DNA from: Cellulomonas pakistanensis
GTDB lineage: Bacteria; Actinomycetota; Actinomycetes; Actinomycetales; Cellulomonadaceae
Assembly: GCF_016862755.1 (NCBI RefSeq)
Contig: NZ_BONO01000020.1
Coordinates: 1 to 64,000, forward strand
Reading direction: 5' to 3'
DNA: 64,000 nucleotides
Every line of letters starts with the position of its first letter. Position 1 is the stretch's first letter. Below the pieces are notes generated by a model. That model was not told the origin of the DNA. It worked only from the letters and a program-made list of their open reading frames with translations, and made no database searches. Positions 1,449-59,688 of this stretch are shown piece by piece. The translations under genes were made by a program, and so were the position numbers.

Positions 1449-1513
1449 CGCCGAGAATGCAGAAGATGCGGGGTTCGTGTGCCCGGAACCCCGCAACAAG
1501 TGCAAGCTCGGCG
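1449..1513. repeat. Intergenic inverted repeat, CGCCGAG family (copy A)
   Basis: The arms are 1449-1476 and 1486-1513 (28 nt each), starting CGCCGAG and ending CTCGGCG, with a perfect inner stem of tgcggggttc and several mismatches between. The right arm matches the right arm of the copy at 32427-32454 at 27 of 28 positions, so this is a dispersed repeat and not a chance hairpin. It lies between two divergent genes, where neither should need a terminator. Confidence 0.85.
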
Positions 1514-1639
1514 CCCTGGGCGGCGGAGGCCGGCGAGCGGGGGTGGTCCTGTCCTCACGCTGTGGCGCGCGTCACCGACACGCACCCCGGCGGCGCGGGG
1601 TCCCGGCCGAGCACGCGGGTGGCGGCTACCGTGAGGATC

Positions 1640-4420
1640 ATGGCCGCCCGTCCGTCCTCCACCGCCACCCGTGCGGCAGCGACCTCGTCGCGCGCCCGCA
1701 CCGCGGCACCGGCGGGGCGCGCGTCCGGCTCCGGCTCGCGCGGCCCCGCGAAGAACGCCGCCCCGCCGCCCCCGCCGCGCCCCGCGCTGCCGATCCGCAT
1801 CGTGCGCGGCATCTGGATGGGCGCCGCCCACGTCGTCGGCGGCGCCGCGCGCCGGGTCGGCCACGGCGCCCGCGACCTCGACCCCGCGCTGCGTCGCGAC
1901 GGCGCCGCGTTCTTCCTGATCGCGCTCGCGATCGTCGTCGCCGCGCGCGAGTGGTGGGGCCTGGACGGCATGGCGGGCGACGCCGTGCACGTCGTGGTCG
2001 CCGGCACGTTCGGCCGCGTCGCGGTCGCCGTCCCGGTCGCCCTGGTCGGCATCGCGGTCCGGCTCATGCGGCACCCCGAGCGCAACCAGGCGAACTCCCG
2101 GATCAGCATCGGCCTCACCGCGATCACGCTGGCCGCCTGCGCGCTCGTGCACGTCCAGCAGGACCTGCCCGCCCCGTCGGGCGGCTTCGAGGCGGTCCGG
2201 GACGCCGGCGGCATCGTGGGCTACCTGGTCGGCACGCCGCTCGTCAGCCTGGTGACCGCCTGGGCGGCCGTGCCGCTGCTGGTGCTGCTCGCGTTCTTCG
2301 GCGTGCTGGTCGTCACCGCGACCCCCGTCAACCAGATCGGCCCGCGCCTGCGCGGCGTCTACGACCGGCTGACCGGCAACCACCGCGAGGACGAGGTCGT
2401 CGAGGACGACGACGCGCCGCTCGTCATCAACGCCGGCCACACGGCGATCGACGAGGAGCCCGCCAAGCCGTCCCGCCGGAAGCTGATGGACCGGCTCAAG
2501 AAGCGCGCGGCGGCCGACCTCGGGGACCCCGACGCCCTCGACGAGTACGCCGGCGACGAGGCCTTCGAGCGCGCCGCCTACGTCGAGCGCATGCGCCGCG
2601 AGGAGGACGCGACCGCGGTCCTCGACCCGGACGACGTCGCCGACGACGAGCTGCCGGCCCCGGGCACCGCCCCGACCCAGGCCGTGACGGCGGTCGGCGC
2701 CGCCACCGCGACCCCCGCGGCCACTGCGGCGGACGAGGTCCCCGCGCAGCGGCCGGACCCGGTGGCCCCGCCCACGACCGGCGTGCCGCGCGGCGAGCAG
2801 CCGATGCTCGGCGGCGACGTGCTCTACACGCTGCCGGACGAGAACGCGCTGGCGAAGGGCGCGCCGCACAAGGTGCGCTCCGCCGCGAACGACCGCGTGG
2901 TCGAGGCGCTGACCGGCGTCCTGGAGAACTTCGAGATCGACGCCCAGGTCACCGGCTTCACGCGCGGCCCGACCGTCACGCGGTACGAGGTCGAGCTCGG
3001 CAAGGGCGTGAAGGTCGAGCGCGTCACGGCGCTCAGCAAGAACATCGCCTACGCCGTGGCGTCGGCGGACGTGCGCATCCTGTCGCCGATCCCCGGCAAG
3101 TCGGCCATCGGCATCGAGATCCCCAACACCGACCGCGAGACCGTGTCGCTCGGCGACGTGCTCCGGTCCAGCGCGGCCCGGCGCTCCGAGCACCCGATGG
3201 TGATCGGCGTCGGCAAGGACGTCGAGGGCGGCTACGTCACGGCGAACCTGGCGAAGATGCCGCACATGCTCGTCGCGGGTGCGACCGGCGCCGGCAAGTC
3301 GTCGTTCGTGAACTCGATGATCGTGTCGGTCCTCATGCGCGCGACGCCCGACCAGGTGCGCATGGTGCTGGTCGACCCCAAGCGCGTCGAGCTCACGATC
3401 TACGAGGGCATCCCGCACCTCATCACCCCGATCATCACCAACCCGAAGAAGGCCGCCGAGGCCCTCGAGTGGGTGGTGCGGGAGATGGAGGCGCGGTACG
3501 ACGACCTCGCGATGTTCGGCTTCAAGCACATCGACGACTTCAACGTCGCGGTGAAGGCCGGCAAGGTGAAGCCGCTGCCGGGCTCGGAGCGCAAGATCGC
3601 GCCGTACCCGTACCTGCTGGTGATCGTCGACGAGCTCGCCGACCTCATGATGGTCGCCCCGCGCGACGTCGAGGCGTCGATCCAGCGCATCACCCAGCTC
3701 GCGCGCGCCGCCGGCATCCACCTGGTGCTCGCGACCCAGCGCCCGTCGGTCGACGTCGTCACCGGTCTGATCAAGGCCAACGTGCCGTCCCGCCTGGCGT
3801 TCGCGACGTCGTCGCTCACCGACTCCCGCGTCGTGCTCGACCAGCCCGGCGCCGAGAAGCTGATCGGCCAGGGCGACGCCCTGTTCCTGCCGATGGGCGC
3901 GGCGAAGCCGATGCGCACCCAGGGCGCCTGGGTCTCCGAGTCGGAGATCCACGCCGTCGTGGCGCACGTGAAGCAGCAGCTCAAGCCCGTCTACCGCGAG
4001 GACGTCGCCGTCACGGTGGCCAAGAAGCAGGTGGACGAGGACATCGGCGACGACCTGGACCTGCTGCTGCAGGCCGCGGAGCTCGTGGTCACCTCGCAGT
4101 TCGGCTCGACCTCGATGCTGCAGCGCAAGCTCCGCGTCGGGTTCGCCAAGGCCGGCCGCCTCATGGACCTGCTCGAGTCCCGCGAGATCGTCGGCCCGTC
4201 CGAGGGGTCGAAGGCGCGCGAGGTGCTCGTGCAGCCCGACGACCTGCCGGGGACGCTGGCGATGCTGCGCGGCGAGCCGGAACCGGGCGGGTCGGGCGCC
4301 GCGTCCGACGGCGGCGGCGCGCCCGCGGCCGACGACCGGTACGCCGCGCCGGAGGGCCGGATGCCCGGCGAGCCGCCCGAGGCCGTCGACTACTACGACG
4401 ACGCCGACGACCTGCGCTGA
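1640..4420 (+). CDS. ftsK: DNA translocase FtsK
   Basis: A 926-residue FtsK/SpoIIIE-type motor that pumps chromosome-dimer DNA through the division septum and activates XerCD recombination. About four hydrophobic segments lie in residues 90-235. An acidic and Ala/Pro-rich linker follows, then the alpha/beta motor domain with Walker A GATGAGKS (about residue 546) and Walker B LLVIVDELADLMMVA. The C-terminal winged-helix gamma domain (ELVVTSQFGSTSMLQRKL) would read KOPS-type sites. The ATG at 1640 follows gtgagg and is preferred over an upstream in-frame start whose 61 extra residues are read from an intergenic repeat. The N-terminal tail (MAARPSSTATRAAATSSRAR) is basic. It is followed after 82 nt by pgsA, the order seen in mycobacteria. 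Confidence 0.97.
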   Translation: MAARPSSTATRAAATSSRARTAAPAGRASGSGSRGPAKNAAPPPPPRPALPIRIVRGIWMGAAHVVGGAARRVGHGARDLDPALRRDGAAFFLIALAIVVAAREWWGLDGMAGDAVHVVVAGTFGRVAVAVPVALVGIAVRLMRHPERNQANSRISIGLTAITLAACALVHVQQDLPAPSGGFEAVRDAGGIVGYLVGTPLVSLVTAWAAVPLLVLLAFFGVLVVTATPVNQIGPRLRGVYDRLTGNHREDEVVEDDDAPLVINAGHTAIDEEPAKPSRRKLMDRLKKRAAADLGDPDALDEYAGDEAFERAAYVERMRREEDATAVLDPDDVADDELPAPGTAPTQAVTAVGAATATPAATAADEVPAQRPDPVAPPTTGVPRGEQPMLGGDVLYTLPDENALAKGAPHKVRSAANDRVVEALTGVLENFEIDAQVTGFTRGPTVTRYEVELGKGVKVERVTALSKNIAYAVASADVRILSPIPGKSAIGIEIPNTDRETVSLGDVLRSSAARRSEHPMVIGVGKDVEGGYVTANLAKMPHMLVAGATGAGKSSFVNSMIVSVLMRATPDQVRMVLVDPKRVELTIYEGIPHLITPIITNPKKAAEALEWVVREMEARYDDLAMFGFKHIDDFNVAVKAGKVKPLPGSERKIAPYPYLLVIVDELADLMMVAPRDVEASIQRITQLARAAGIHLVLATQRPSVDVVTGLIKANVPSRLAFATSSLTDSRVVLDQPGAEKLIGQGDALFLPMGAAKPMRTQGAWVSESEIHAVVAHVKQQLKPVYREDVAVTVAKKQVDEDIGDDLDLLLQAAELVVTSQFGSTSMLQRKLRVGFAKAGRLMDLLESREIVGPSEGSKAREVLVQPDDLPGTLAMLRGEPEPGGSGAASDGGGAPAADDRYAAPEGRMPGEPPEAVDYYDDADDLR

Positions 4421-4490
4421 CGCCCGCCGGGCGGTCCGCGAGGCGTGCCCCCGGGGCCGGCTCCGGGTCGGGTTCGGCGTCGTCTGCCCG

Positions 4491-4496
4491 TAGGCT
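4491..4496 (+). promoter_or_regulatory. Candidate -10 element for leaderless pgsA mRNA
   Basis: TAGGCT ends exactly six nucleotides before the pgsA GTG, so transcription would begin on the start codon itself. The intervening gagggg also resembles a ribosome-binding site, so a leadered transcript from ftsK read-through could be translated too. No clear -35 was seen. Confidence 0.5.
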
Positions 4497-4502
4497 GAGG
4501 GG

Positions 4503-5138
4503 GTGAGTCGCCCTTCGCCGCTGAACGTCGCCAACGTGGTGACGGTGCTGCGCATCGCCGTGGTGCCGTTCTTCGCGTGGGCCCTCCTGGTCGACGGCGG
4601 GGACGACCCGACCTGGCGCTGGGTGGCCGCCGGGATCTTCGCGCTCGCCGCCGCCACGGACCGGCTCGACGGCTACCTGGCCCGCCGGCTCGGCCTGGTC
4701 ACGGACCTCGGCAAGCTGCTCGACCCGATCGCCGACAAGGCCCTCATCGGCGCCGCGCTGGTCGGGCTGTCCTGGATCGGCGACCTCGGCTGGTGGGTGA
4801 CCGGCGCGATCCTCGTCCGGGAGATCGGCATCACCGTGATGCGGTTCTTCCTGCTCAAGTACCTCGTGCTGCCGGCGTCCCGCGGCGGCAAGATCAAGAC
4901 CGTGCTGCAGTCGGTCGCCGTCGGGCTGTTCCTGCTGCCGCTCGCCGAGCTGCCGACCGTGGTGCTCGTCGTCGCCAGCGTGCTCATGGGCGCCGCCGTC
5001 GTCGTCACGCTGGTCACCGGCGCCGACTACGTGCGGACGGCCGTGCGGGTGCACCGGGAGCACGTCGCGGGCGGCGTGGAGGCCACCCGGCACGCGGCGG
5101 CGACCGGGACGACGTCCCCGCACGGCGACCCGGCGTGA
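4503..5138 (+). CDS. pgsA: CDP-diacylglycerol--glycerol-3-phosphate 3-phosphatidyltransferase
   Basis: A 211-residue integral membrane CDP-alcohol phosphatidyltransferase. The complete family signature D-x2-DG-x2-AR-x8-G-x3-D-x3-D is present at D53, D56, G57, A60, R61, G70, D74 and D78 (DRLDGYLARR then GKLLDPIADK). It makes phosphatidylglycerol phosphate, the first committed step toward phosphatidylglycerol and cardiolipin. Hydrophobic segments flank the motif and fill the second half. The start is GTG. The stop overlaps the cinA GTG as GTGA, so the two genes are translationally coupled. Other CDP-alcohol transferases share the motif; the ftsK-pgsA-cinA order and the N-terminal NVANVVTVLRI support PgsA. 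Confidence 0.93.
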   Translation: MSRPSPLNVANVVTVLRIAVVPFFAWALLVDGGDDPTWRWVAAGIFALAAATDRLDGYLARRLGLVTDLGKLLDPIADKALIGAALVGLSWIGDLGWWVTGAILVREIGITVMRFFLLKYLVLPASRGGKIKTVLQSVAVGLFLLPLAELPTVVLVVASVLMGAAVVVTLVTGADYVRTAVRVHREHVAGGVEATRHAAATGTTSPHGDPA

Positions 5139-5740
5139 CCGCGGGGGCCGCGGACCCGGCCGTGGGGGCCGCGGACGGGCCCGTGCGGGCCGCGGACGGA
5201 CCCGCGGGCGCGGAGGGCCGGCCCGGGGCGGTCGCGGACGCGCACGGCGCGGCGGACGCGCACGCCGCGGCGGACGCGCTGCTCGCCGCCCTGCGCGGGC
5301 GCGGCTGGACGGTGGGCACCGCCGAGTCGCTCACCGGCGGCCGGGTCGCGGCGGCCCTGGTGGACGTGCCGGGCGCCTCGCGGTCCCTGCGCGGCGGCGT
5401 CGTCGCCTACGCCACGGACGTCAAGGGCTCCGTGCTCGGCGTCGACGCCGACCTGCTCGCGGAGCACGGCGCCGTGCACCCCGAGGTGGCGCGCCAGATG
5501 GCCGAGCGCGTGCGCGGCGTCGTGGGCTCCGACGTCGGCCTCGCGACCACCGGGGTCGCTGGACCGGACCAGCAGGACGGACATTCACCCGGGACCGTGC
5601 ACGTCGCCGTCGCGACCCCCGAGCGCACCGTGGTGCGCACCCTCGCGCTGGAAGGGGACCGGGACGCGATCCGGGCCGCCACCTGCGACGCGGTCCTCCG
5701 GGAGGCGCTGTCCGCGGTGGCCGGCGACGGCGCCCGCTGA
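5135..5740 (+). CDS. cinA: CinA C-terminal-domain protein (nicotinamide-nucleotide amidohydrolase)
   Basis: A 201-residue protein made only of the CinA C-terminal (PncC-type) domain, which in characterised members deamidates nicotinamide mononucleotide to nicotinate mononucleotide in pyridine-nucleotide salvage. Diagnostic stretches are GTAESLTGGRVAAALVDVPG, LRGGVVAYATDVKGSVLGV and TTGVAGPDQQDGHSPGTVHV. The molybdopterin-like N-terminal domain of full-length CinA (about 400 residues) is absent. In its place are about 45 residues of low-complexity Ala/Gly/Asp sequence read from ggccgcggac-type repeats, so the true start may lie later, near residue 45. The GTG at 5135 overlaps the pgsA stop. 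Confidence 0.88.
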   Translation: MTAGAADPAVGAADGPVRAADGPAGAEGRPGAVADAHGAADAHAAADALLAALRGRGWTVGTAESLTGGRVAAALVDVPGASRSLRGGVVAYATDVKGSVLGVDADLLAEHGAVHPEVARQMAERVRGVVGSDVGLATTGVAGPDQQDGHSPGTVHVAVATPERTVVRTLALEGDRDAIRAATCDAVLREALSAVAGDGAR

Positions 5741-5955
5741 CGCCCGGGAACACCCGGGGCCGTGCGGGCGTTGTGTAGATCGTGATGAACACCAGGCCCA
5801 CCAGCCGTCCCGGCGCTGCCCGTCAGGGCGCCGCACTGTACGGTGGGAGCCTCCCCACGCGGGGCCACAAGGGTGCCGCCGTCGTCCGGCCCGCTGCTGC
5901 GGGTCAGCAGACGGCGCGGCAGGAGCAGGATCGGGACCAGAGAGGGGGACGCCAG

Positions 5956-6291
5956 ATGGTCGTGTTGCGCCGAGAGATCGGTGACGTGCTGCGGGATGCC
6001 CGCCAGCGGCAGGGACGCACCCTGCGCGAGGTGTCCTCCGCCGCCCGGGTGTCGCTGGGTTACCTCAGCGAGGTCGAGCGGGGTCAGAAGGAGGCGTCGT
6101 CGGAGCTGCTCGCGAGCATCTGCGAGGCGCTCGACGTGCCCATGTCGCTCGTGCTGCGCGAGGTGAGCGACCGCATCGCCGTCGCCGAGGGTCTGCTGAT
6201 CCCCGACACCGTCCCGGTCGACCTGGCTTCGGCCCTGGCCGGTCAGGACAGCACCTGGCGCCGACGCCCGGAGCTCACCCCGGTCGGCTGA
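5956..6291 (+). CDS. clgR: XRE-family transcriptional regulator ClgR
   Basis: A 111-residue helix-turn-helix regulator. The HTH ([20 protein letters not shown]) is followed by [20 protein letters not shown], a stretch nearly invariant in ClgR/PopR proteins, which activate clp protease and other stress genes in actinobacteria. The ATG at 5956 has a strong AGAGGGGGAC ribosome site. The 58 residues available upstream in frame look like untranslated leader. In Mycobacterium tuberculosis clgR likewise follows ftsK and pgsA. A weak promoter candidate (TACGGT at 5839-5844) lies in the 215-nt leader. The C-terminal degradation tag expected for ClgR turnover cannot be judged from sequence. Confidence 0.92.
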
Positions 6292-6315
6292 CCGCGGGGG
6301 ACCCACCCCAGACAC

Positions 6316-6368
6316 CGACGACGCCCGGTCGTCCCGCCCTTCGCTCGGCGGGAGGCCGGGCGTCGTCG
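6316..6368 (+). terminator. clgR terminator hairpin
   Basis: A perfect 13-bp outer stem (cgacgacgcccgg with its complement at 6356-6368) and an inner cccgcc/ggcggg stem begin 24 nt after the clgR stop. The spacing and stem strength suit an intrinsic-type terminator lacking a T-tract, as is usual in high-GC actinobacteria. Confidence 0.75.
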
Positions 6369-6405
6369 CGTCCGGCGGCCGGTTGATCGGCGGGTGACCG
6401 GGCTC

Positions 6406-6459
6406 GAGTGGAGGATCCGGCCCGACACGCACCGGCGTGTCGGGCCGGATCGTCCACTC
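6406..6459. terminator. Second long convergent hairpin
   Basis: Arms gatccggcccgacacgc (6414-6430) and its exact complement (6435-6451) enclose a 4-nt loop. They extend past one G/G mismatch by a further 7 bp (gagtgga/tccactc). It lies between clgR and the leftward nei and probably ends transcription from the nei side, making the pair with the 6316 hairpin bidirectional. Confidence 0.7.
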
Positions 6460-6532
6460 GTCCCTGGTCCCTCGTCGTCCGGGCCGAGTGGATCACCGGC
6501 ACGGACACGCGTGGGCGAGCGGCGCGCGGGGG

Positions 6533-7342
6533 TCAGGCCGCGGGCGTCGGCGGGCGCTGGCAGACGCCGCAGAAGTACGCCGGCCGCTCCGTCGGCGGGT
6601 GGCCCGCGAGCCCGCGGCGCACCGGCGCGCCGCACCGTCGGCACGGCTCCTTGAGCCGCCCGTGCACCCAGGTCTCGCGGCCGCGGTACACCTCGCCCGT
6701 CGTGGACGGCGACGACGACCCGACCGAGCGCTGCATGATCGCCCGGGCGACGCGGAGCAGCCGGACGGGGTCGGCGACCTCGTCGGCCGGGGTCCAGGGC
6801 CAGATCTTCTCGAGGAACAGGGAGTCGGCCATGTAGATCGTGCCGATGCCGGCGACGACGGTCTGGTCGAGCAGCACCTCGCACACCGGGGTGGACCCGC
6901 GCGCGGCCCACCGGCGCAGCACCTCGGGGATGCCGGCCGCCTCGAAGTCGTCGGCCAGCAGGTCCGGCCCGAGGTGGCCGATGAGGGTGTGCTCGTCGCG
7001 GGTCGGCACCACGTCGAGCATCCCGATCAGCTCGCCGACGGCGGTCCAGGTCTCGTTCGCCAGCACCGCGCGCACGTGCGGTGCGCCGGCCCGGGCGCCG
7101 GGGGAGCCGGTGCGGGCGATCCGCCAGGACCCGTCCATCCGCAGGTGGGTGTGCAGGGTGCGGCCGTCGTCGAACCGGGTGAGCAGGTGCTTGCCGTACG
7201 GCTTCGTGCCGAGGACGGTGCGGCCGACCAGGTCGACGGTGGCGGCGGTGGGCCAGCGCAGGTCGCTGCGCACGAGCACGCGACCCGCGAGGGCCTCGTC
7301 GAGCCGGCGGGCGGTGCGGGCGAGGATGTCGCCCTCAGGCAC
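6533..7342 (-). CDS. nei: Fpg/Nei-family DNA glycosylase/AP lyase (Nei2-like)
   Basis: A 269-residue formamidopyrimidine-DNA-glycosylase/endonuclease VIII-type enzyme. It begins MPEGD, giving the catalytic N-terminal proline and Glu after Met removal, and the EGD form is typical of Nei rather than Fpg. A central helix-two-turn-helix region (GSTPVCEVLLDQTVVAGIGT) precedes a zinc finger with CRRC and CGVC. It excises oxidised pyrimidines and cuts the abasic site. It lies 69 nt downstream of lhr on the same strand; M. tuberculosis also has a Nei gene next to lhr. The two could be co-transcribed as a repair unit. Confidence 0.93.
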   Translation of the reverse strand: MPEGDILARTARRLDEALAGRVLVRSDLRWPTAATVDLVGRTVLGTKPYGKHLLTRFDDGRTLHTHLRMDGSWRIARTGSPGARAGAPHVRAVLANETWTAVGELIGMLDVVPTRDEHTLIGHLGPDLLADDFEAAGIPEVLRRWAARGSTPVCEVLLDQTVVAGIGTIYMADSLFLEKIWPWTPADEVADPVRLLRVARAIMQRSVGSSSPSTTGEVYRGRETWVHGRLKEPCRRCGAPVRRGLAGHPPTERPAYFCGVCQRPPTPAA

Positions 7343-7411
7343 CGGCGGTCACCTTCCCGGCGCTGCGGGCGACCCCGCCTCCCGGCACGACCGCGCGACC
7401 GGGCGACCGCC

Positions 7412-12490
<5,079 letters not shown>

Positions 12491-12600
12491 CGCGCCATTC
12501 TGTCGCGGGGCACCGACACGCGCGCCCTCACCTGCGGGTCCGCGGCTGCGCTCCCCGCGAACGGCTGCGCGGGGCGGGTCGCGCGCGGCAGGATCGGGGC

Positions 12601-13071: not shown

Positions 13072-13146
13072 CCGTGGCCGACTGACCACCGGAGCCGTGT
13101 CGCGCGTACGCTCGCTGGTCCACGGACGGTCGGGGAGGGGAACGCA

Positions 13147-13380: not shown

Positions 13381-13445
13381 CGCCCGCACCGCACCACCCG
13401 CGACGGGCGTCCCTCCGTGCGCCGCCGCGTGGCAGGCTGGGCGAC

Positions 13446-16432: not shown

Positions 16433-16493
16433 GGCGCGGGCACGCGGGCGGGGTCGGTGCGCGACGCGCCGCGGCGTGTCGGTGCGCAGTCGG

Positions 16494-21142: not shown

Positions 21143-21216
21143 CGCCGAGATAGGGCCGTCCCGCCGAGGTAGGGCCCTGGATGGTCCTACCTCGGCGGAA
21201 CGGCCCTATCTCGGCG
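21143..21216. repeat. Intergenic inverted repeat, CGCCGAG family (copy D)
   Basis: Two 34-nt arms (21143-21176 and 21183-21216) pair with only two mismatches, both G-T wobble-compatible, around a 6-nt loop. Each arm holds two copies of the module GCCGAGRTAGGGCC. It lies between convergent rny and gluD, so it could act as a bidirectional terminator. It shares ends and modules with copy E at 59613-59688. The rest of this 250-nt gap shows nothing else. Confidence 0.9.
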
Positions 21217-22806: not shown

Positions 22807-22876
22807 GCAGGGTCCTTCGGGTCAGGGGCGGGCGGCGCCGGGCGCCGGGCGGCGCGCGGGGGCGCGACGGCGGTGC

Positions 22877-22915
22877 GGCGCCCGGCCCCGCGCAGCACGC
22901 GCGGGGCCGGGCGCC
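22877..22915 (-). terminator. Intra-operon attenuating hairpin between gluB and gluC
   Basis: A perfect 17-bp stem (ggcgcccggccccgcgc, 22877-22893, with 22899-22915) has a 5-nt loop and starts a few bases after the gluB stop. Partial terminators or mRNA-stabilising stems at this point are common in binding-protein operons and keep the binding protein in excess. Confidence 0.7.
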
Positions 22916-22922
22916 GAGGGGG

Positions 22923-32293: not shown

Positions 32294-32359
32294 CGCCGAG
32301 ATGGCAGCTCTCGGCTGTCGCGGGGCGCTCGCGCACAGCCGAGAGGTGCCATCTCGGCG
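32294..32359. repeat. Intergenic inverted repeat, CGCCGAG family (copy C)
   Basis: Arms 32294-32318 and 32335-32359 (25 nt each) pair with one mismatch around a 16-nt loop. They begin CGCCGAGATGGCA and end in the complement. It lies 70 nt after the TPR gene and could terminate the YbjN-HSP90-TPR operon. Confidence 0.9.
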
Positions 32360-32389: not shown

Positions 32390-32450
32390 CGCCGAGCTTG
32401 CAGTAGCTGCGGGGTTCGGGGCGGCGGAACCCCGCAACAACTGCAAGCTC

Positions 32451-32454
<4 letters not shown>
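32390..32454. repeat. Intergenic inverted repeat, CGCCGAG family (copy B)
   Basis: Arms 32390-32417 and 32427-32454 (28 nt) pair with two mismatches around a 9-nt loop, starting CGCCGAGCTTGCAGT. The right arm is 27/28 identical to that of copy A at 1486-1513, 31 kb away. It sits 30 nt downstream of copy C in the same 328-nt gap. Confidence 0.9.
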
Positions 32455-41582: not shown

Positions 41583-41609
41583 CGGGACCGCTCCTGCGCG
41601 CCCGGCGCG

Positions 41610-41653
41610 CGACGGCCCCCGAACCCGCCGTGCGGCGGGTTCGGGGGCCGTCG
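41610..41653. terminator. Bidirectional terminator between ldh and lexA
   Basis: A perfect 20-bp stem (41610-41629 with 41634-41653) has the 4-nt loop gtgc. It lies 27 nt after the ldh stop and 5 nt beyond the lexA stop on the other strand. Confidence 0.88.
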
Positions 41654-41658
41654 CCGCG

Positions 41659-43193: not shown

Positions 43194-43199
43194 GGTGCC

Positions 43200-46236: not shown

Positions 46237-46246
46237 CCCGCCCGGC

Positions 46247-46296
46247 CACGCACGAGGGCCCCGCACCGGCGATCCGGTGCGGGGCCCTCGTGCGTG
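46247..46296. terminator. Bidirectional terminator, 23-bp perfect stem
   Basis: Positions 46247-46269 and 46274-46296 are exact complements with the 4-nt loop cgat. It starts 10 nt after the S9 peptidase stop and lies 25 nt beyond the ligase stop on the other strand, so it serves both convergent genes. Confidence 0.9.
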
Positions 46297-46321
46297 CGGG
46301 TCGTGCGCGCCCGCGGTCCTG

Positions 46322-48013: not shown

Positions 48014-48022
48014 GAGGTCACC

Positions 48023-48046
48023 GTAACCTACGGATGCGTAAGTTAC
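48023..48046. promoter_or_regulatory. Operator-like 24-bp palindrome upstream of the ligase
   Basis: The sequence from GTAAC (48023) to GTTAC (48046) is self-complementary at 20 of 24 positions, with half-site CGTAAGTTAC. It is much more A+T-rich than its surroundings and lies ten bases before the ligase start. Size and symmetry suit a TetR-family repressor, which often controls acyl-CoA ligase genes. The regulator is not in this window. Confidence 0.55.
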
Positions 48047-48084
48047 GTGAGCGTAGCCTGAGGCAACGGGGGAGATCGCCCGGG

Positions 48085-49134: not shown

Positions 49135-49182
49135 GGCCCCGACGCTAGCGCGTCGACCCGGCGCCCCGCCGAGCGGCGGCCG

Positions 49183-50379: not shown

Positions 50380-50483
50380 GCGCCTATGGTGCGCCTCCCG
50401 GGACCCCGGCTCCAAGCCGGTCCGGGTGGCGGACACCCGCGGGGCGGTGGACCGGGGTGGGACCGCCCGGCCCGGTAGGGCGG

Positions 50484-52727: not shown

Positions 52728-52978
52728 GCGTGCTCCCGTCGGTCGTCCCGTCCTGCGCCGCGCCCGGGCGAGGTCGACGCGCGACCGGCCGGAGCGGCCG
52801 TCCATTCTCCTACATCCCGGGCGCGCCGTGTGACGGCCGACCGGGTGGCGGGCGGCGGGGGCGCGACCTGCGCGAAGATCCTCCGCCGACCGGGAAGAGG
52901 GGCGGCGCTCGCGGTGTTGTGACCCTCAGGACGCCGCCCCGGTGGGCGGCGCACGGACTGACCCCCAGGGAGGACCCC

Positions 52979-53926
52979 ATGCTGGACCCGAGCGAGATCT
53001 ACGCCGTCGACCCGGCGGTCGCCGCCGAGGTCGAGGCGCGGACCGCGGGCGGCAGCGGGCCGGTGCTCGTGCACGCCGTGCGCGGCTTCGTGGACGCCGG
53101 CGGCGCCGGCCGGCTCTCGGCCGAGCACCTGACCGAGCAGCTCCCGACCGCGCGCCTGGCGACGTTCGACGTCGACCAGCTGCTCGACTACCGGTCGCGC
53201 CGCCCCACCGCCACCTTCGAGGGCGACCACTGGGGCGAGTACGAGGAGCCCGAGCTCGCCGTCGACCTGGTGCGCGACACCTCCGGGGTGCCGTTCCTGC
53301 TGCTGCACGGCGTCGAGCCGGACGTGCAGTGGGAGCGGTTCGCCGCCGCCGTGCGGCAGATCGTCGAGCGGTTCGACGTCCCGCTGACGGTCGGGCTGCA
53401 CGGCATCCCGATGGGCATCCCGCACACCCGCCCGCTGTCGGTCACGGCGCACGCCAGCCGGCCCGAGCTGGTCGCGAACTACACGTCGTGGTTCGGGACG
53501 GTGCAGGTGCCCGCCTCCGCGGGGACGCTGCTGGAGATCCGGCTCGGCCAGTCCGGGCACGACGCCATGGGCTTCGCGGTGCACGTGCCGCACTACCTGG
53601 CGCAGTCGCCGTTCCCGCAGGCGTCGATCACCGGGCTCGAGCACGTGCAGCGCGCCGCCGGCCTGGAGCTCGACCTCGGTGCGCTGACCGAGGCCGCCTC
53701 CGAGACGATGCTCGAGGTCGAGCGGCAGGTCGAGGACCAGCCCGAGGTCCAGACCGTCGTGCACGCCCTGGAGCAGCAGTACGACGCGTTCGCCCGGAAC
53801 ATCGGCAGGCCCAGCCTGCTCGCCGAGACCGCGGAGCTGCCGACCGCCGACGAGCTCGGTGCGGAGTTCGAGCGGTTCCTCGCCCAGCAGGGCGACGACG
53901 GCAAGGGCTCGGGCCCGGGCTACTGA
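52979..53926 (+). CDS. PAC2-family protein
   Basis: A 315-residue protein of the PAC2 (proteasome assembly chaperone) superfamily, common in actinobacteria. It shows VLVHAVRGFVDAGGAGRLSA, LATFDVDQLLDYRSRRPTAT, FLLLHGVEPDVQWERFAAAV and LHGIPMGIPHTRPLSVTAHA. The biochemical role in bacteria is not established; no proteasome genes are in the window. An AGGGAGGA ribosome site precedes the ATG. The 251-nt divergent gap to helD contains a small hairpin (about 52932-52950) and no gene. Confidence 0.87.
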   Translation: MLDPSEIYAVDPAVAAEVEARTAGGSGPVLVHAVRGFVDAGGAGRLSAEHLTEQLPTARLATFDVDQLLDYRSRRPTATFEGDHWGEYEEPELAVDLVRDTSGVPFLLLHGVEPDVQWERFAAAVRQIVERFDVPLTVGLHGIPMGIPHTRPLSVTAHASRPELVANYTSWFGTVQVPASAGTLLEIRLGQSGHDAMGFAVHVPHYLAQSPFPQASITGLEHVQRAAGLELDLGALTEAASETMLEVERQVEDQPEVQTVVHALEQQYDAFARNIGRPSLLAETAELPTADELGAEFERFLAQQGDDGKGSGPGY

Positions 53927-53938
53927 GCGCCGCCGCAC

Positions 53939-53986
53939 CGCCGAGGGCCCGGCGCCCGGGGGAGACCCGGTGCCGGGCCCTCGGCG
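53939..53986 (+). terminator. Terminator hairpin after the PAC2 gene
   Basis: A 15-bp perfect stem (cgccgagggcccggc, 53939-53953, with 53972-53986) and an inner ccgggg/cccgg region. It begins 12 nt after the stop. Its ends also read CGCCGAG...CTCGGCG, like the dispersed inverted repeats, but the interior is ordinary GC stem. Confidence 0.75.
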
Positions 53987-54063
53987 TGCGCGGGACGCCG
54001 CGCGCCGGTGTGTGACCCGCGACTCGTCGGACCCGCGCGCCGGAGCGGGCAGAATTGCTGTAC

Positions 54064-55419
54064 GTGACATCCGACCGCCGCGCGCTGCTTGTCTGGACGG
54101 TCGCGGTCGGCGCGTACGTCGTCGCGATCATGAACCGCTCCTCCCTGGGCGTCGCCACGCTCGAGGTGACGGAGCTGTTCGGCGTCTCCTCGGCGCTGCT
54201 GGCGGCGATGGCCGTCGCGCAGCTCGTGGTCTACGCCCTGCTGCAGGTGCCGGTCGGCGTGCTGCTCGACCGGTACGGGCCGCGGGTGCTCGTCGCCACC
54301 GGCGCCGCCGGCATGGCGCTCGGTCAGACCGTGCTCGCCCTGGCGCCGTCCGCCGGCTGGGTGCTGGCGGGCCGGGTGCTGGTCGGCGCGGGCGACGCGC
54401 TGACGTTCGTGTCCGTCGTCCGGCTGGTGCCCGCGTGGTTCGCCGCGCGCCGGGTGCCCGTGATGACGCAGCTCACCGGCAGCCTCGGCCAGCTCGGCCA
54501 GGTGCTGTCCGCGGTCCCGGTCGTCGCGCTCCTGCACGCCGAGGGCTGGCGGACGACCTTCCTGTCGGTCGCGGCCGTCGGCGTGGTGGCCACGATCGCG
54601 GTGGTCGCGGTCGTGCGGGACGCCCCGGCCGACGCCGTGGGGCCGGGTGCCGCCGCGGAGCCGGACGTCGCGGCGGGGCTCGGCGCGGGTGCCGCGGTCC
54701 CGGCGCCGTGGTGGCGGGCGGGGCTGCTGCGCCGGCGCTGGCGGCCGGCCCGCGCCCGGGCGCCGCGCGAGCCCGGGGCGCTGCGCGCCGTGCTGCGCGA
54801 CCCCGGCGCGCGCCTCGGGTTCTGGATGCACTTCTCCGGGCAGTTCAGCAACCACGTCGTCGTGCTGCTCTGGGGCTACGCGTTCTTCGTCGAGGGCCAG
54901 GGCCGGACGCCCGGCGAGGCGAGCGCGCTGCTGACGCTCAACGTGGTGGCGGCCGTCGTCGCCGGGCCGGTCATCGGCGTCGTCGTCGGGCGCCGCCCGC
55001 GCGCGCGGATGCCGATCGCCCTGGGCACGTCGGTGGCGATCGGGCTGGCGTGGCTGTCCGTGACGGTGCCTGCCGCGCCGGTGCCGTTCGCGGTGCTGTG
55101 CGTGTTCGTGGTCGTCGTGGCGGTCGGCGGGCCGACGTCGCTCGTGGCGTTCGACGTCGCCCGGTCCTGCACGCCGCCGCAGCGGCTCGGCACGGCGACC
55201 GGGTTCGTCAACACCGGCGGGTTCGTCGGGGCGCTCGCGACGATGCTCGTCGTCGGGATCGTGCTGGACGCGGCCTCGGGCGGCGCCACCGGGGCGCGGG
55301 ACCTGGACGCGTTCCGGTCGGCGTTCGCCTGGGTGGCGGTGCCGTGGGTCCTCGGGGTCGCGGCGATGCTGCTCGGCCGGCGCGGCGCGAGGCGTGCGCA
55401 CCCCGGGCTCGCGATCTGA
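54064..55419 (+). CDS. Major facilitator superfamily transporter
   Basis: A 451-residue, 12-helix MFS permease. The loop 2-3 signature appears as GVLLDRYGPRVLVATGAAGM. Helix 1 region is LLVWTVAVGAYVVAIMNRSS, and a long Ala/Arg/Pro-rich cytoplasmic loop (about residues 195-240) divides the halves. The substrate is unknown; the pattern resembles nitrate/nitrite-porter-like or drug-resistance groups. The GTG at 54064 gives MTSDRRALL with AGAATT seven nucleotides upstream; a TTG three codons earlier is possible. Confidence 0.83.
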   Translation: MTSDRRALLVWTVAVGAYVVAIMNRSSLGVATLEVTELFGVSSALLAAMAVAQLVVYALLQVPVGVLLDRYGPRVLVATGAAGMALGQTVLALAPSAGWVLAGRVLVGAGDALTFVSVVRLVPAWFAARRVPVMTQLTGSLGQLGQVLSAVPVVALLHAEGWRTTFLSVAAVGVVATIAVVAVVRDAPADAVGPGAAAEPDVAAGLGAGAAVPAPWWRAGLLRRRWRPARARAPREPGALRAVLRDPGARLGFWMHFSGQFSNHVVVLLWGYAFFVEGQGRTPGEASALLTLNVVAAVVAGPVIGVVVGRRPRARMPIALGTSVAIGLAWLSVTVPAAPVPFAVLCVFVVVVAVGGPTSLVAFDVARSCTPPQRLGTATGFVNTGGFVGALATMLVVGIVLDAASGGATGARDLDAFRSAFAWVAVPWVLGVAAMLLGRRGARRAHPGLAI

Positions 55420-55760
55420 GCGGCCGGGGCGCTCGCGGGCGGTCCCGTCGCCGCTCAGAACGCCTCCCGACCGGTCGGTCGGGGTGGTCGTCCTGTGACC
55501 GGGTCGTGACCGGATCGTTGTGATCCACGCCGCATCGGGCCGGGAAGAACCGTGGCGTCCAGATGACCTGCGTGAGAGTATCGCCGTGTTGCAGTGACGT
55601 ACTGACGCTTGACCGGCGCCGGTCGGGCCCCTCCGGGGACGCCCGCGCGGCACCTTCCAGCCATCCGGCTGGTCCACCCGGTGCAGGACGCGGGATAGGC
55701 ATTGCGGCACGGTCCGGGGAGTTCCCGGCACCGTCACCGGATGGACAGAAGGACAAGAAC
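55420..55760 (+). other. Gene-free 341-nt stretch, probable csp leader
   Basis: No credible gene lies between the MFS and cold-shock genes. Long untranslated leaders are usual for cold-shock mRNAs and act as thermosensors in E. coli. A short inverted repeat (gggcccctccggggac, near 55626) is visible. No promoter could be placed with confidence. Confidence 0.4.
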
Positions 55761-55964
55761 ATGGCACAGGGTGCTGTCAAGTGGTTCAACGCTGAGAAGG
55801 GCTACGGCTTCATCGCCCAGGACGGCGGCGGCGCCGACGTCTTCGTGCACTACTCGGCCATCGACTCCTCGGGCTACCGCTCCCTCGAGGAGGGCCAGCG
55901 CGTCGAGTTCGAGATCACCCAGGGCCCGAAGGGCCCGCAGGCGGAGCAGGTCCGCCCGCTCTGA
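55761..55964 (+). CDS. csp: Cold-shock protein (CspA family)
   Basis: A 67-residue single cold-shock domain: [13 protein letters not shown] (RNP1 KGYGFI), [10 protein letters not shown] (RNP2) and the C-terminal [17 protein letters not shown]. It binds single-stranded nucleic acid and melts mRNA structure. The ATG follows agaaggacaag. A terminator hairpin (56000-56037) lies 35 nt downstream, so it is monocistronic. Confidence 0.97.
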
Positions 55965-55999
55965 TCTGACTCCGACCGCCCGCTGCGGGCAGTCCGAGC

Positions 56000-56037
56000 G
56001 ACGAGGCCGCATCCCCTCCCGGGGGTGCGGCCTCGTC
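56000..56037. terminator. csp terminator, also facing the spermidine-synthase-like gene
   Basis: gacgaggccgca (56000-56011) pairs perfectly with 56026-56037, with further cccc/gggg pairing inside. It lies between convergent genes and probably works in both directions. Confidence 0.8.
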
Positions 56038-56060
56038 CGCGTCCGAATGCGGTCCGGCGG

Positions 56061-57023
56061 TCAGGGGTCGACGGCGGACCCGGGCTCCGGCTCGAGCTCC
56101 GGAGCCGCGTCCCGCAGCGGGGCGGCGCGGCCGGCGAACGCGACCAGCTCCTCGCCGACGAGCAGCCGCGCCGGCACGGGCAGCGACCGCAGGTCCCGCG
56201 CGAGGCCCGCGTCGTCGAGCAGCGCCGGGTCGTCCGTGGCGACCAGGACGAGGTTGCCGTACCGCCGCCCGCGGAGCACCGCCGGCTCGGCGACGACGCC
56301 GACGTGCGCGAACACCGGCGCGAGGGTGGCGGCCTCGGCGCGGGCCAGCGCGAGCGGCGGGCGGTCGGCGCAGTTGGCGAGGTAGAGCCCGCCGGGCCTC
56401 AGCACGCGCGCGACGTCCCGGGCGAACTCCTCGGTGGTCACGTGCGGCGGCGTGCGGTCGCCGGCGAACACGTCCCGCAGCACCGCGTCGGCGCTCGCGT
56501 CGGCCAGCGTGCCGAGCTCCGCGCGGGCCTCGCCCGCCCGCAGCCGCAGCGCGGGGGAGCGCGGCAGGTCGAACCAGTCGCGCACGAGGGCGACCAGCAC
56601 CGGGTCCAGGTCGACCGCGATCTGCCGCGCCCCGGGGAACCGCACGTCGGCCCAGCGGGCCATCGCGCAGCCCGCCGCCCCGAGGTGCACCGCGCGGAAC
56701 GGGCCGTCCGCCGCGGGCAGGTGGTCCAGGACCGCCGCCATCTGCTGCATGTACTCGAAGTCGAGGCGCAGCGGGTCGGCCAGGTCGAGGTGCGAGCTGG
56801 GGACGCCGTTGACGAGCAGCGTCACGGCGTCGGGGTCGTCGGGGGAGCGCTGCACCTCCGCGGTGCCGGTCGCGATCGGCACGGGGCCGTCCGGCCAGGG
56901 CTGCGCGGCGGCCTGCCCGCGCCCGCCGCGTGTCGGTGGTCGATGGGACTCTGGTGCAGGTCGGCGGCCCCCGGCGGTCTTCTCGGACCGGGTGGATCGG
57001 CCGGACCGGCCACGGGACGCCAT
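56061..57023 (-). CDS. Spermidine-synthase-like methyltransferase-fold protein
   Basis: A 320-residue Rossmann-fold protein of the actinobacterial spermidine-synthase-like group. Motifs are HLDLADPLRLDFEYMQQMAA, VHLGAAGCAMARW, IAVDLDPVLVALVRDWFDLP and ADAVLRDVFAGDRTPPHVTT, with LRPGGLYLANCADRP later. The active-site Asp of true spermidine synthases (YD in DVIIxD) appears as LRDVFAG, so polyamine synthesis is uncertain. The N-terminal 45 residues are Arg/Gly-rich; the start may lie later. It is divergent from the SOS-controlled HEPN-dinB operon and its start is 26 bp from the LexA box. Confidence 0.75.
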   Translation of the reverse strand: MASRGRSGRSTRSEKTAGGRRPAPESHRPPTRGGRGQAAAQPWPDGPVPIATGTAEVQRSPDDPDAVTLLVNGVPSSHLDLADPLRLDFEYMQQMAAVLDHLPAADGPFRAVHLGAAGCAMARWADVRFPGARQIAVDLDPVLVALVRDWFDLPRSPALRLRAGEARAELGTLADASADAVLRDVFAGDRTPPHVTTEEFARDVARVLRPGGLYLANCADRPPLALARAEAATLAPVFAHVGVVAEPAVLRGRRYGNLVLVATDDPALLDDAGLARDLRSLPVPARLLVGEELVAFAGRAAPLRDAAPELEPEPGSAVDP

Positions 57024-57039
57024 CGGCCCACCGTACGGG

Positions 57040-57068
57040 TTGACGCGTTCGAACAGGTGTTCGATACT
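57040..57068 (+). promoter_or_regulatory. SOS promoter with embedded LexA box (HEPN-dinB)
   Basis: -35 TTGACG (57040-57045), 17-nt spacer and -10 GATACT (57063-57068). The perfect LexA palindrome TCGAACAGGTGTTCGA occupies 57049-57064 between and overlapping them, so LexA binding would block RNA polymerase. Confidence 0.93.
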
Positions 57069-57095
57069 GGTGCAGTCGAGAGAGGGAGGTGCGCG

Positions 57096-57533
57096 ATGCC
57101 GGTCAAGACCCTTCGTGCCCTGCGGAGTGCGGCGCCCGGGCTGTCCGGCCGCACGGCCGAGCTGCTCCAGCGCGCGGACGCGGAGCTCGTCGCCGCGCAG
57201 TTCTCGTCCGAGCCGTGGGAGCAGTTCACCCACGCCCACCTGGCCGCGCTGCGCGCCGGCGCCGCGGTCCTGGCGGAGCGCCAGCCGCTGTCCGCCCGCC
57301 GCGGCCCGCGCACGGTGTGGGAGCTGCTCGACCGCGTCGCGCCGGAGATGAACCGGTGGTCCGCGTACTTCGCCGCAGGCGCCGGGCTGCGCGCCGCGGT
57401 GGACGCCGGGCGGTTCGACGCCGTGTCGGCCGAGCGCGCCGAGCAGGTCCTGTGCCACGCCGAGGACTTCCTCGACCTGGTGCGCGCCGAGCTCGAGGGC
57501 GCCGCCGAGCTCGAGGCGGCACGCGCCGGATGA
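57096..57533 (+). CDS. SAV_6107-family HEPN-domain protein
   Basis: A 145-residue, all-helical protein of the SAV_6107 HEPN family, commonly found next to dinB in actinobacteria. It shows LLQRADAELVAAQFSSEPWE, FTHAHLAALRAGAAVLAE and RTVWELLDRVAPEMNRWSAY. An R-x6-H arrangement (R114 to H121, RAEQVLCH) in the last helices fits the RX4-6H motif of HEPN ribonucleases, but its activity is unproven. An agagggagg ribosome site precedes the ATG. The stop overlaps the dinB ATG (ATGA), and the pair shares one LexA-controlled promoter. Confidence 0.86.
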   Translation: MPVKTLRALRSAAPGLSGRTAELLQRADAELVAAQFSSEPWEQFTHAHLAALRAGAAVLAERQPLSARRGPRTVWELLDRVAPEMNRWSAYFAAGAGLRAAVDAGRFDAVSAERAEQVLCHAEDFLDLVRAELEGAAELEAARAG

Positions 57534-58837
57534 GCCGCGGCCCACGGTCGCAGGACGCGAAGCGCGACTGGGGCACCGAGGAGGACGGGTGCTCGATCCT
57601 GCACGTCGACATGGACGCGTTCTTCGCGTCGGTCGAGCTCGCCCGCCGACCGCACCTCCGGGGCAAGCCGGTGATCGTCGGCGGGTCCGAGCGCTCCGTC
57701 GTGCTCGCCGCGACCTACGAGGCGCGCGCGTTCGGCGTGCACTCGGCGATGCCGATGGCCGCCGCGCTGCGGATGTGCCCGCAGGCGGTCGTCGTCCCGC
57801 CCGACCACGCGGCGTACCAGGAGGTGTCGCGCAGCGTCATGACGGTGCTGCACGACGTCACCTCCATCGTCGAGCAGGTCAGCGTCGACGAGGCCTTCCT
57901 CGACGTGAGCGGTGCGCGCCGCCGGCTCGGCAGCCCGACGCGCATCGCCGCGCTCATCCGGGAGCGGGTCCAGGCGCAGCACGGCATCACGTGCTCCGTC
58001 GGCATCGCGGCCACCAAGTTCGTCGCGAAGCTCGCCTCCGGGCACGCGAAGCCGGACGGCGTCCTGCTGATCCCGAGGGCCGCGACGGTGGACTTCCTCC
58101 GGGTCCTGCCGGTCGGCGCGCTGTGGGGCGTGGGGGAGCGGACCGCCGCGTCGCTCGAGCGCTGGGGCATCCGCACGGTCGCCGAGCTCGCCGACAGCGA
58201 CGTGACGGTCGTGCAGCGCGCGGTCGGCCGGGTCGCCGGCGCACACCTGCACGACCTCGCGTGGGGGCGGGACCCGCGGCCGGTGACGCCGGGGCGCGAG
58301 GAGAAGAGCATCGGCGCGGAGGAGACCTTCGCCGTCGACGTCCGCGACATGCGGGTGGTGGAGAGCAAGGCGCTGGAGCTCGCCGACCGGTGCGCCGGCC
58401 GGCTGCGGTCCCAGCGGCTCGTGGCGCGCACCGTGGCCGTGAAGATCCGCACCTCGGACTTCCGGACGCTGAGCCGGTCCCGGACGCTGCCCCAGCCGAC
58501 CGACGTCGGACGGGAGCTCTATCTGACCGCCCGGGACCTCCTCGCGGCCGCGGACCTCGGCGGGCTGCCTGTGCGGCTCGTGGGCGTGCGCGCGGAGGGG
58601 CTGAGGCCGGCGGCGGAGGTGATCCGGCAGCCGACGCTCGACGAGGCGGTCGCCGACAACCCGGGCGCCCGCCGCGACGCCGAGCGGGCGATGGACCTGG
58701 TGCGTGCGCGGTTCGGGCGGTCGGCGATCGGCGCCGGGACGCCCGCCGTCGGGCGCTCGGCGCGGGAGGTGTCGGCAGGGTCACCCGGTCCGGGCGAGCG
58801 CCCGACTACCGAGTTCGCCGACGGCCCTCTATCCTGA
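57530..58837 (+). CDS. dinB: DNA polymerase IV (Y family)
   Basis: A 435-residue translesion polymerase. The catalytic carboxylates lie in LHVDMDAFFASVELARRP and VSVDEAFLDVSGARRR. VIVGGSERSVVLAATYEARA, CSVGIAATKFVAKLASGHAK and the HhH region GVGERTAASLERWGIRT follow, then the little-finger domain (EEKSIGAEETFAVDV). No obvious beta-clamp-binding motif is seen in the Gly/Pro-rich last 40 residues. Translation is coupled to the HEPN gene and induction is by DNA damage through LexA. Confidence 0.95.
   Translation: MSRGPRSQDAKRDWGTEEDGCSILHVDMDAFFASVELARRPHLRGKPVIVGGSERSVVLAATYEARAFGVHSAMPMAAALRMCPQAVVVPPDHAAYQEVSRSVMTVLHDVTSIVEQVSVDEAFLDVSGARRRLGSPTRIAALIRERVQAQHGITCSVGIAATKFVAKLASGHAKPDGVLLIPRAATVDFLRVLPVGALWGVGERTAASLERWGIRTVAELADSDVTVVQRAVGRVAGAHLHDLAWGRDPRPVTPGREEKSIGAEETFAVDVRDMRVVESKALELADRCAGRLRSQRLVARTVAVKIRTSDFRTLSRSRTLPQPTDVGRELYLTARDLLAAADLGGLPVRLVGVRAEGLRPAAEVIRQPTLDEAVADNPGARRDAERAMDLVRARFGRSAIGAGTPAVGRSAREVSAGSPGPGERPTTEFADGPLS
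58830..58835 (+). promoter_or_regulatory. Candidate -10 of the DUF3040 gene
   Basis: TATCCT lies at the 3' end of dinB, overlapping its stop region. It would give a leader of about 35 nt with a gggggttgga ribosome site before the ATG. Confidence 0.4.
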
Positions 58838-58875
58838 GGTGAAGAGAGTCCCGACGGCGGAGCACGGGGGTTGGA

Positions 58876-59271
58876 ATGCCTCTCTCCGAGTACGAACAAC
58901 GTGTACTGGAGCAGATGGAGCGTCAGCTCACGTCTGATGATCCCCGGCTCGCGAACACGCTGACATCGCGTGGGCGGAAGCCGGTCCTGCGGTACGTCCT
59001 GGGCGGCATCGGTGCCGTCGTGGGGCTGTTGCTGCTGGTGGTGGGCGCTGCGGCGTCCGAGGTGTGGCTCGGGGTTCTGGGCTTCGTCGTCATGTTCGCC
59101 TCCGTCGCGATCGCGTTCACGCGGCCGCGTCGCGGTGGCGGGCCGGTCGGCGTCGTCCGTCCCGACGGGAGCACCGCGCCGCGTCCCGCGGCCACCGCCC
59201 CGAAGAGCAAGCGGGGCTTCATGTCCCGCATGGAGGACCGCTGGGACAAGCGGCGCGACCAGGGTCGCTGA
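58876..59271 (+). CDS. DUF3040 membrane protein
   Basis: A 131-residue protein of the actinobacterial DUF3040 family, which often lies near dinB or the division cluster. The N-terminal cytoplasmic helix MPLSEYEQRVLEQMERQL and DDPRLANTL are family-specific. Two membrane helices follow (LGGIGAVVGLLLLVVGAA; VWLGVLGFVVMFASVAIAF), then a basic, Pro-rich cytoplasmic tail. The function is unknown. A terminator hairpin begins 41 nt after the stop. Confidence 0.9.
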   Translation: MPLSEYEQRVLEQMERQLTSDDPRLANTLTSRGRKPVLRYVLGGIGAVVGLLLLVVGAAASEVWLGVLGFVVMFASVAIAFTRPRRGGGPVGVVRPDGSTAPRPAATAPKSKRGFMSRMEDRWDKRRDQGR

Positions 59272-59311
59272 CCCGGACGTCGACCGTCTGACCCCGCGGC
59301 GCCGCCGCGAC

Positions 59312-59338
59312 CGGGCCCGCCTCACGGAGGCGGGCCCG
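59312..59338 (+). terminator. DUF3040-gene terminator
   Basis: cgggcccgcct (59312-59322) pairs perfectly with 59328-59338 around the 5-nt loop cacgg. The tandem repeat array begins at the next base. Confidence 0.8.
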
Positions 59339-59538
59339 CGCACGTCGGCGCCGTGCCGCGGCCGCGGGGGTGGGCCCACGCGCGTCGGCGCCGTGCCGCG
59401 GTCGCGCGGGTGGGCCTGCGCGCGTCGGCGCCGTGCCGCGGCCGCGGGGGTGGGCCTGCGCGCGTCGGTGCCGTGACGCGGTCACGTGGGTGGGCGTGCG
59501 CGCGTCGGTGCCGTGACGCGGTCGCGCGGGTAGGCCCT
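59339..59538. repeat. Five tandem 40-bp repeats
   Basis: Five consecutive 40-bp units start at 59339, 59379, 59419, 59459 and 59499. The core is cgcgtcggcgccgtgccgcg followed by a variable g(g/t)c(g/a)cg stretch and ggtgggcc. Units 2 and 3 are the most alike; units 4 and 5 share gtgacgcgg. The array is intergenic between convergent genes, with no spacers, so it is a VNTR-like locus and not CRISPR. Confidence 0.95.
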
Positions 59539-59612
59539 CGCTGGAGGGGTGGCGACTCGCGGCGTGCCGCCGACGCGACTCGCGGCGTGCGCCGATGCCA
59601 CCGCCCGGGCCT

Positions 59613-59688
59613 CCGCCGAGGTAGGACCTGCGCGCCGAGATAGGACTGCGTCCGGCCCTACCTCGGCCGCGCGGTCCTACCTCGGCGG
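59613..59688. repeat. Intergenic inverted repeat, CGCCGAG family (copy E)
   Basis: A perfect 16-bp outer stem (ccgccgaggtaggacc, 59613-59628, with 59673-59688) encloses a second, imperfect stem made of gccgagatagga (59634-59645) and its near-complement (59656-59667). The double-module build matches copy D at 21143-21216. It lies between the tandem array and the end of the leftward transglutaminase gene. The rest of the 518-nt gap shows no gene. Confidence 0.9.

Follow-up and report, generated by a model that had tools for sequence, protein, structure and literature searches.

The 64,000-nt stretch analyzed here (the window, G000:C20:1-64000) comes from the 4.0-Mb genome of Cellulomonas pakistanensis (G000; 57 contigs, 99.9% complete). 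It carries members of several dispersed palindrome families, and such a family is probably paired with a resident nuclease, a predicted fusion of an AbiEi-like and a Vsr-like domain, whose gene has a copy of its own palindrome on either side. The sequences compared display flanking of the nuclease genes on both sides, co-divergence of the palindromes with the N-terminal half of the protein, solo copies dispersed elsewhere, clade-specific presence at a gene junction, conserved stems and, in one family (B), covariation. That the nuclease is also the disperser of the palindromes is what we infer. A first-pass annotation of the window had proposed a family resembling repetitive extragenic palindromic (REP) elements. 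Its REP-like set and its doubts about plain termination stand, its suggested role as target of a REP-associated tyrosine transposase (RAYT) finds no support in this genome, and the nuclease pairing and many further families had been missed.

Nuclease genes between copies of one palindrome

The clue to the pairing was that the gene between two B copies and the gene between two C copies encode homologous proteins. The candidate partner is about 300 aa long and would join an AbiEi-like domain to a Vsr-like PD-(D/E)XK nuclease. The N-terminal half is predicted to be an AbiEi-type DNA-binding domain: PADLOC AbiEi models match four of the five proteins tested (best E per protein 6e-13 to 0.015), and AbiEi_4 matches the nuclease of family D with an E-value of 0.0014, under the Pfam cut-off. 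The C-terminal part matches the structure 3hrl (‘endonuclease-like protein,’ E 1.6e-7) and, less strongly, 3r3p (‘mobile intron protein,’ E 0.024), the latter being presumably the solved I-Bth0305I with its Vsr-like class. Residues E218, D251, E262, and D264 are invariant in all 20 full-length nucleases. Domain match and conserved acidic residues thus suggest a Vsr-like PD-(D/E)XK fold, with several of the PF18741 matches lying below the curated cut-off. A large PF18741 protein matching anti-phage models was left out of the nuclease set. The large protein with an MTES_1575 domain and anti-phage matches (ProA/Hhe, below cut-off) at locus L360 (G000:C10) adjoins a D palindrome and was treated separately from the short nucleases.

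A profile built from 20 short proteins gave nine, eight, and seven matches in C. pakistanensis and its congeners G027 and G009, respectively; 20 of these are full-length, eight of them being part of the profile. Under one rule, same-family palindromes lie on both sides of 16 of the 20 full-length genes. Among 523 background genes (600-1300 nt long, from 1.2 Mb), the identical rule returned a single one, which is such a nuclease itself. By eye the number of flanked nucleases is 15; at L401 the left partner is doubtful and possibly in coding sequence. Among the 12 genes outside the search profile, nine are flanked by the rule and eight by eye. The 20 genes represent eight loci, each of which is flanked in at least one species. 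In an earlier, overlapping set from 12 genomes, which does not comprise every match, 14 of 21 short-protein loci share at least seven 8-mers between both sides, and another is cut by a contig end. The nuclease-flanking palindromes measure 52-96 nt. In the 15 two-sided units measured, 87-264 nt separate one copy from the matched start that follows it, and the second lies downstream, at most 62 nt from the matched end in 12 of them.

Each protein goes with one family. In C. pakistanensis the nuclease loci carry family B (contig C21), C (C32), K (C19), M (C6), N (C1, weak), G (C3), G' (C19:40k), and F (C11; gene G000:C11:77940-78884). In G009, a nuclease gene (C22) stands between D copies; its C. 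pakistanensis orthologue has N and the G027 orthologue is without a matched pair. Judged by neighboring genes, the nuclease loci are orthologous across species and their palindrome family may differ. Locus 1 has family C in C. pakistanensis and G027, C' in G009, Bv in G034, and Bv2 in G001, with none found in G016; between species, locus 5 has G' or P and locus 6 has G or I. Nuclease distance and palindrome similarity are correlated over 22 units, orthologues included (Mantel rho -0.36, p 0.0003; -0.31 when only pairs separated by more than 0.35 are used, 225 in number). When the C-terminal half is controlled for, palindrome similarity goes with the N-terminal half (partial rho 0.33, p 0.0005), and no such relation is seen for the C-terminal nuclease half when the N-terminal half is controlled for (0.003, p 0.48).

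The main rival is a set of binding sites without spreading, in which the palindromes are operators or chromosome marks bound by the AbiEi-like protein, the flanking pair serves autoregulation and the solo copies form a regulon or docking set. The dependence of specificity on the N-terminal half and the copy ahead of the matched start agree with it, as does the report that the promoters of AbiEi and Rv2827c contain 23-bp inverted repeats bound by these same proteins, four in tandem in the case of Rv2827c (PMC7319586). Such a set accounts less well for the second copy downstream of the gene, for solo copies that prefer convergent over divergent gaps (see below) and for the pairing covariation in family B, which a pure operator leaves unexplained. 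We therefore regard it as unlikely. The AbiEi-like half, the PD-(D/E)XK-type half and the occurrence of an MTES_1575 domain in a large C. pakistanensis protein matching anti-phage models would also fit a defense or toxin-type enzyme, with the palindromes as self-marks, decoys, or protected sites; to this we assign very little probability.

The arrangement extends beyond Cellulomonas. Two genomes from two other families of the order (G040 and G042) have 19 matches, and three of the four short-protein loci examined there are flanked. On Arthrobacter plasmids two of three loci are flanked on both sides (L420 and L422) and L421 on one side. The L422 pair shares only four 8-mers, yet the palindromes are plainly alike, and this palindrome occurs in six and four places in two StoSoilB13 replicons. 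The single locus found in Collinsella aerofaciens encodes a remote homologue (24% identity over 136 aa; DUF559 with E 0.022, below cut-off), with four palindrome copies upstream of its gene and two on the downstream side.

Palindrome families in the window and the genome

Pattern searches and reading of the DNA resolve three families of fixed length with common outer ends, B (65 nt), C (66 nt), and D (74 nt); in D, two modules stand 19 nt apart within each arm. The copies in the window are listed in Table 1. All five inverted repeats of the first-pass annotation were recovered at their positions, the fifth after trimming to family length; their shared ends CGCCGAG/CTCGGCG and the division into three subfamilies were correct, and gene calling places all five between genes. 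The first of them (copy A) indeed lies between divergent genes, an AlkZ-like gene (147-1316, minus strand) and FtsK (1562-4420, plus strand).

Table 1. Positions and surroundings of the family palindromes in the window.
Feature	Position	Structure	Surroundings and remarks
Family B palindrome, 65 nt	1449..1513	arms 28 nt, loop 9 nt	divergent alkZ-like/ftsK gap; used to train model R1
Family F palindrome, 56 nt (CGAGTGGAGGATCCGGCCCGACACGC)	6405..6460		between 5956-6291(+) and 6533-7342(-); absent from the first-pass annotation
Family D palindrome, 74 nt	21143..21216	two 19-nt modules (CGCCGAGRTAGGRCC) per arm	rny (RNase Y, +)/ABC permease gene (-) gap
Family C palindrome, 66 nt	32294..32359	arms 25 nt, loop 16 nt	
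Family B palindrome, 65 nt	32390..32454		30 nt past the C copy; codirectional neighbors
Family D palindrome, 74 nt	59614..59687	two modules per arm	convergent neighbors

The best stem scores of the window are 28, 23, 23, 23, 22, and 21, with nine others of at least 14; in 20 first-order Markov random windows the top score is 16, with at most four stems of at least 14 per window. The annotated hairpins other than copy A score 28, 23, 22, and 16. Copy A has mismatches in its arms and is not among the 30 stems listed out of 41 in the window, so we accepted it on its likeness to the family (six mismatches over 56 arm positions). Other strong hairpins, at 46247-46296, 41609-41654, 53939-53986, and 22876-22916, resemble ordinary GC-rich terminators, although the one at 53939 also has CGCCGAG ends. 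A further B candidate at 75-139 is poor and probably due to chance. Rfam at gathering cut-offs gave no matches within the window.

Genome-wide, GCCGAGRTAGG has 67 matches against four for the reversed control, several of the lone ones resembling chance hits in coding DNA among the loci inspected, and GCCGAGNTNGCA has 71 against 35. The motifs thus exceed the reversed controls, and the copies run to tens rather than a few: in the stretches of the C. pakistanensis genome that were fetched, 32 of 35 B candidates, 18 of 19 C candidates, and all 17 D candidates are clear. Family models match 76 (B), 50 (C), and 47 (D) times on both strands; these numbers are inexact counts, because both strands contribute, scoring was limited to 84-90 candidates per genome, and C copies are caught by the B model at lower score. 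The model survey covered 58 genomes (C. pakistanensis, 35 congeners, and 22 from the same order), of which 11 have matches to B (E up to 0.01), six to C, and 13 to D (E up to 0.001). B is most frequent in C. pakistanensis and G009 (74 matches, both strands, possibly including C-type copies). The C model has 82 matches in G027, followed by C. pakistanensis, G016 (31), and G009 (27), and the D model has 84 in G009 and 70 in G027, the latter including a related D' type. RNase Y identity to C. pakistanensis is 91% in G009 and G027, 89% in G034, 88% in G016, 85% in G001, and 68-71% in eleven others. The main carriers therefore form one clade.

Between copies in C. pakistanensis, the stems are 0.79-0.88 identical, the loops 0.38-0.46, and the flanks 0.37-0.40. 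Covariation is strong in B, with double changes in 12 of 28 pairs; for each of five measures, none of 500 shuffles reached the observed level. It does not exceed shuffles in C and does so weakly in D, so we claim no selected pairing for these two families. One D copy (L038:165) has changed TAGG to GAGG in all four modules.

Many more palindrome families exist beyond B, C, D, and F. Family E (CGAGACCCACTGATCC) has three copies in a 400-kb sample of the C. pakistanensis genome (L304:12753, L300:7650, and L311:17497); for families E and H no matching nuclease was found in this genome. At L071:1441-1505 we noticed a chimera with a C-like outer module and a B-like inner stem. In two species, C copies overlap a palindrome of C' type (CGAGTCTCC), namely at L063:1521-1647 and after the C copy of L152.

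Genomic placement and junction history

The 136 copies collected from three species lie between convergent (62), codirectional (55), or divergent genes (12), with six unresolved and one called intragenic. Minus ten poor copies the numbers are 60, 49, 11, five, and one, respectively, for a total of 126. In the window, 17% of the intergenic bases in gaps of at least 80 nt are convergent and 22% divergent. On either side of the element the flank is C-rich toward it (mean skew 0.19, background 0.003, nominal p 5e-18, at convergent and codirectional sites pooled from C. pakistanensis, G027, and G009, with copies that are not independent). At the few divergent sites the skew is weaker on one side. 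Apart from this C skew, the flanks have no extended complementarity. Rho-loading regions are C-rich.

The bias to convergent gaps and the C-rich flanks on both sides, which resemble such Rho-loading regions, are what one would expect from ordinary bidirectional terminators or hairpins protecting the 3' end of mRNA, the likeness in sequence being fortuitous. This is very unlikely, as the copies share fixed lengths and common sequences across tens of sites, 12 of 136 lie in divergent gaps and the families are associated with nuclease genes. Moreover, at codirectional sites G.U is no more common than A.C in sense orientation (54 against 56), a comparison that is indecisive if both strands are transcribed, and the hairpin is missing at the rny junction in most comparable congeners. 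By eye, the flanks displayed have no U-tract after the hairpins (uncounted). The shared sequence, the divergent sites and the lack of a G.U-over-A.C strand bias bear out the earlier opinion that plain termination is insufficient. A milder form, in which some copies were exapted as terminators, is compatible with the pairing of palindromes and nucleases.

One junction compared across congeners is that downstream of rny. A D copy follows rny in C. pakistanensis and in two of 16 congeners (G009 and G027). Among the other 14, three (G014, G026, and G032) have a different downstream gene, which leaves 11 comparable ones. In eight of these the gap shows no hairpin; an unrelated one is present in G034 and G008, and that of G011 is imperfect and enters coding sequence. 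In G016, G001, and G034 the permease facing rny is 85-88% alike; in the remaining comparables it is only 37-45% alike, which weakens most of these comparisons. The pattern suggests that D at the rny junction is a clade-specific gain.

Between C. pakistanensis and G027 we compared 24 locus pairs with common flanking genes; some keep their family and some have switched, at a rate that is biased because the G027 loci were mostly picked for C and D matches. A swap of a required terminator was considered for this switching and rejected, as 8 of the 11 comparable congeners do without a hairpin at the rny junction.

Proposed dispersal and relation to known repeat systems

We consider the chances evenly balanced that these are new self-dispersing palindromes of Actinomycetota, in which a locus-fixed, vertically inherited nuclease recognizes and spreads its own family, and shifts in the specificity of its N-terminal half replace the genome-wide families between species. 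The N-terminal domain would read the modules of the palindrome, in many cases CGAG with a tail specific to the family; the binding of an AbiEi relative to four tandem repeats would suit the four modules of family D. The nuclease might then cut the palindrome, either as duplex or as a hairpin of single-stranded DNA. Once cut, the palindrome could be repaired or copied in a way that seeds new intergenic copies. Copies between genes would be tolerated and perhaps retained as 3' hairpins.

Several observations weigh against pairing or dispersal. The closest whole copies in C. pakistanensis are only 0.88-0.92 identical, so there are no fresh copies in this genome. Target-site duplications were not found in B, C, or D (observed about as expected, n = 2 to 9), although old insertions could mask them. 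According to PMC8794818, template switching can yield concerted arm changes and covariation without selection. Four of the 20 nucleases fail the flanking rule (L403, L404, L406, and L408, the last with only two shared 8-mers), and the Fisher p of 4e-26 for flanking is only nominal since orthologues are not independent. Of the six PF18741 hits in C. pakistanensis, only two pass the Pfam cut-off, one being the excluded large protein. Family D has 17 clear copies in C. pakistanensis, yet no D-flanked nuclease there, and no B-flanked nuclease was found in G009 despite its 74 B-model matches (both strands, with C-type copies perhaps included). In other genera, matched flanks were not found at two loci of Tsukamurella and one of Nonomuraea. 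The L420 palindrome occurs in only two places and the Collinsella one in only four (plasmid collection, E 1e-5), so that neither adds evidence of spread beyond the unit.

Among the matches listed, no paper connects palindromic repeats with these genes, in a literature search whose scope excluded most subscription articles and bioRxiv preprints. If the proposal is true, palindromes would have a second, unrelated enzyme as partner, matched to them one family at a time, and a multiple origin of such repeat populations would be suggested. Genes of DUF559/AbiEi type, whose current annotations read hypothetical, DUF559, or AbiEi-domain protein, would gain a suggested role, and the families would provide numerous natural pairs for the study of protein-DNA specificity.

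The usual partners of REP-type palindromes are RAYT transposases. The dispersed intergenic palindromes described here, often as inverted pairs at fixed spacing, conform to REPs and REPINs, and the fixed length, conserved ends, and variable center of the pairs are REPIN-like (PMC3116915), as mobilization by a RAYT would have it. However, the Y1/RAYT transposase domain PF01797 has no match in the C. pakistanensis genome (relatives were not searched), although the same search matches five of 14 control genomes, and the CGCCGAG/CTCGGCG ends of B, C, and D lack a GTAG or CGTC foot tag. We therefore did not assign the families to REP/RAYT; RAYT mobilization is contradicted for this genome and has hardly any probability. 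In the 32 nuclease-flanking palindromes, CGAG/CTCG is present within 12 nt of the end in 40 of 64 ends.

REPIN/RAYT systems (REPtrons) share with the present families dispersed intergenic palindromes of fixed length with conserved ends, a variable middle and compensatory changes, as well as a resident gene that has its own repeats on both sides (PMC3116915, PMC6006769). They differ in the enzyme, which is HUH-Y1 in REPtrons and putatively AbiEi-like plus Vsr-like PD-(D/E)XK here, and in the tag, GTAG there and often CGAG here, in a genome where no Y1 gene was found. GTAG/CGTC REPs and TIRYTs (PMC3733652) likewise comprise many families of tagged palindromes, with TIRYT genes between terminal inverted repeats; those REPs measure 20-40 bp, shorter than the nuclease-flanking ones here, and their tags and proteins are unrelated. 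CGTC REPs, a large class, are stated there to have no dedicated transposase, and the words ‘actino’ and ‘cellulomonas’ occur zero times in the main text of that paper. With AbiEi antitoxins of type IV toxin-antitoxin systems, which bind inverted repeats (PMC7319586), our proteins share matches of the N-terminal half to AbiEi models; their C-terminal half is nuclease-like instead. Vsr-like endonucleases resemble that C-terminal half through 3hrl and, weakly, 3r3p, but the present proteins differ in their fusion to an AbiEi-like domain and in having palindromes beside the gene in place of a location within an intron. By analogy, the layout appears REPtron-like and built from unrelated parts.

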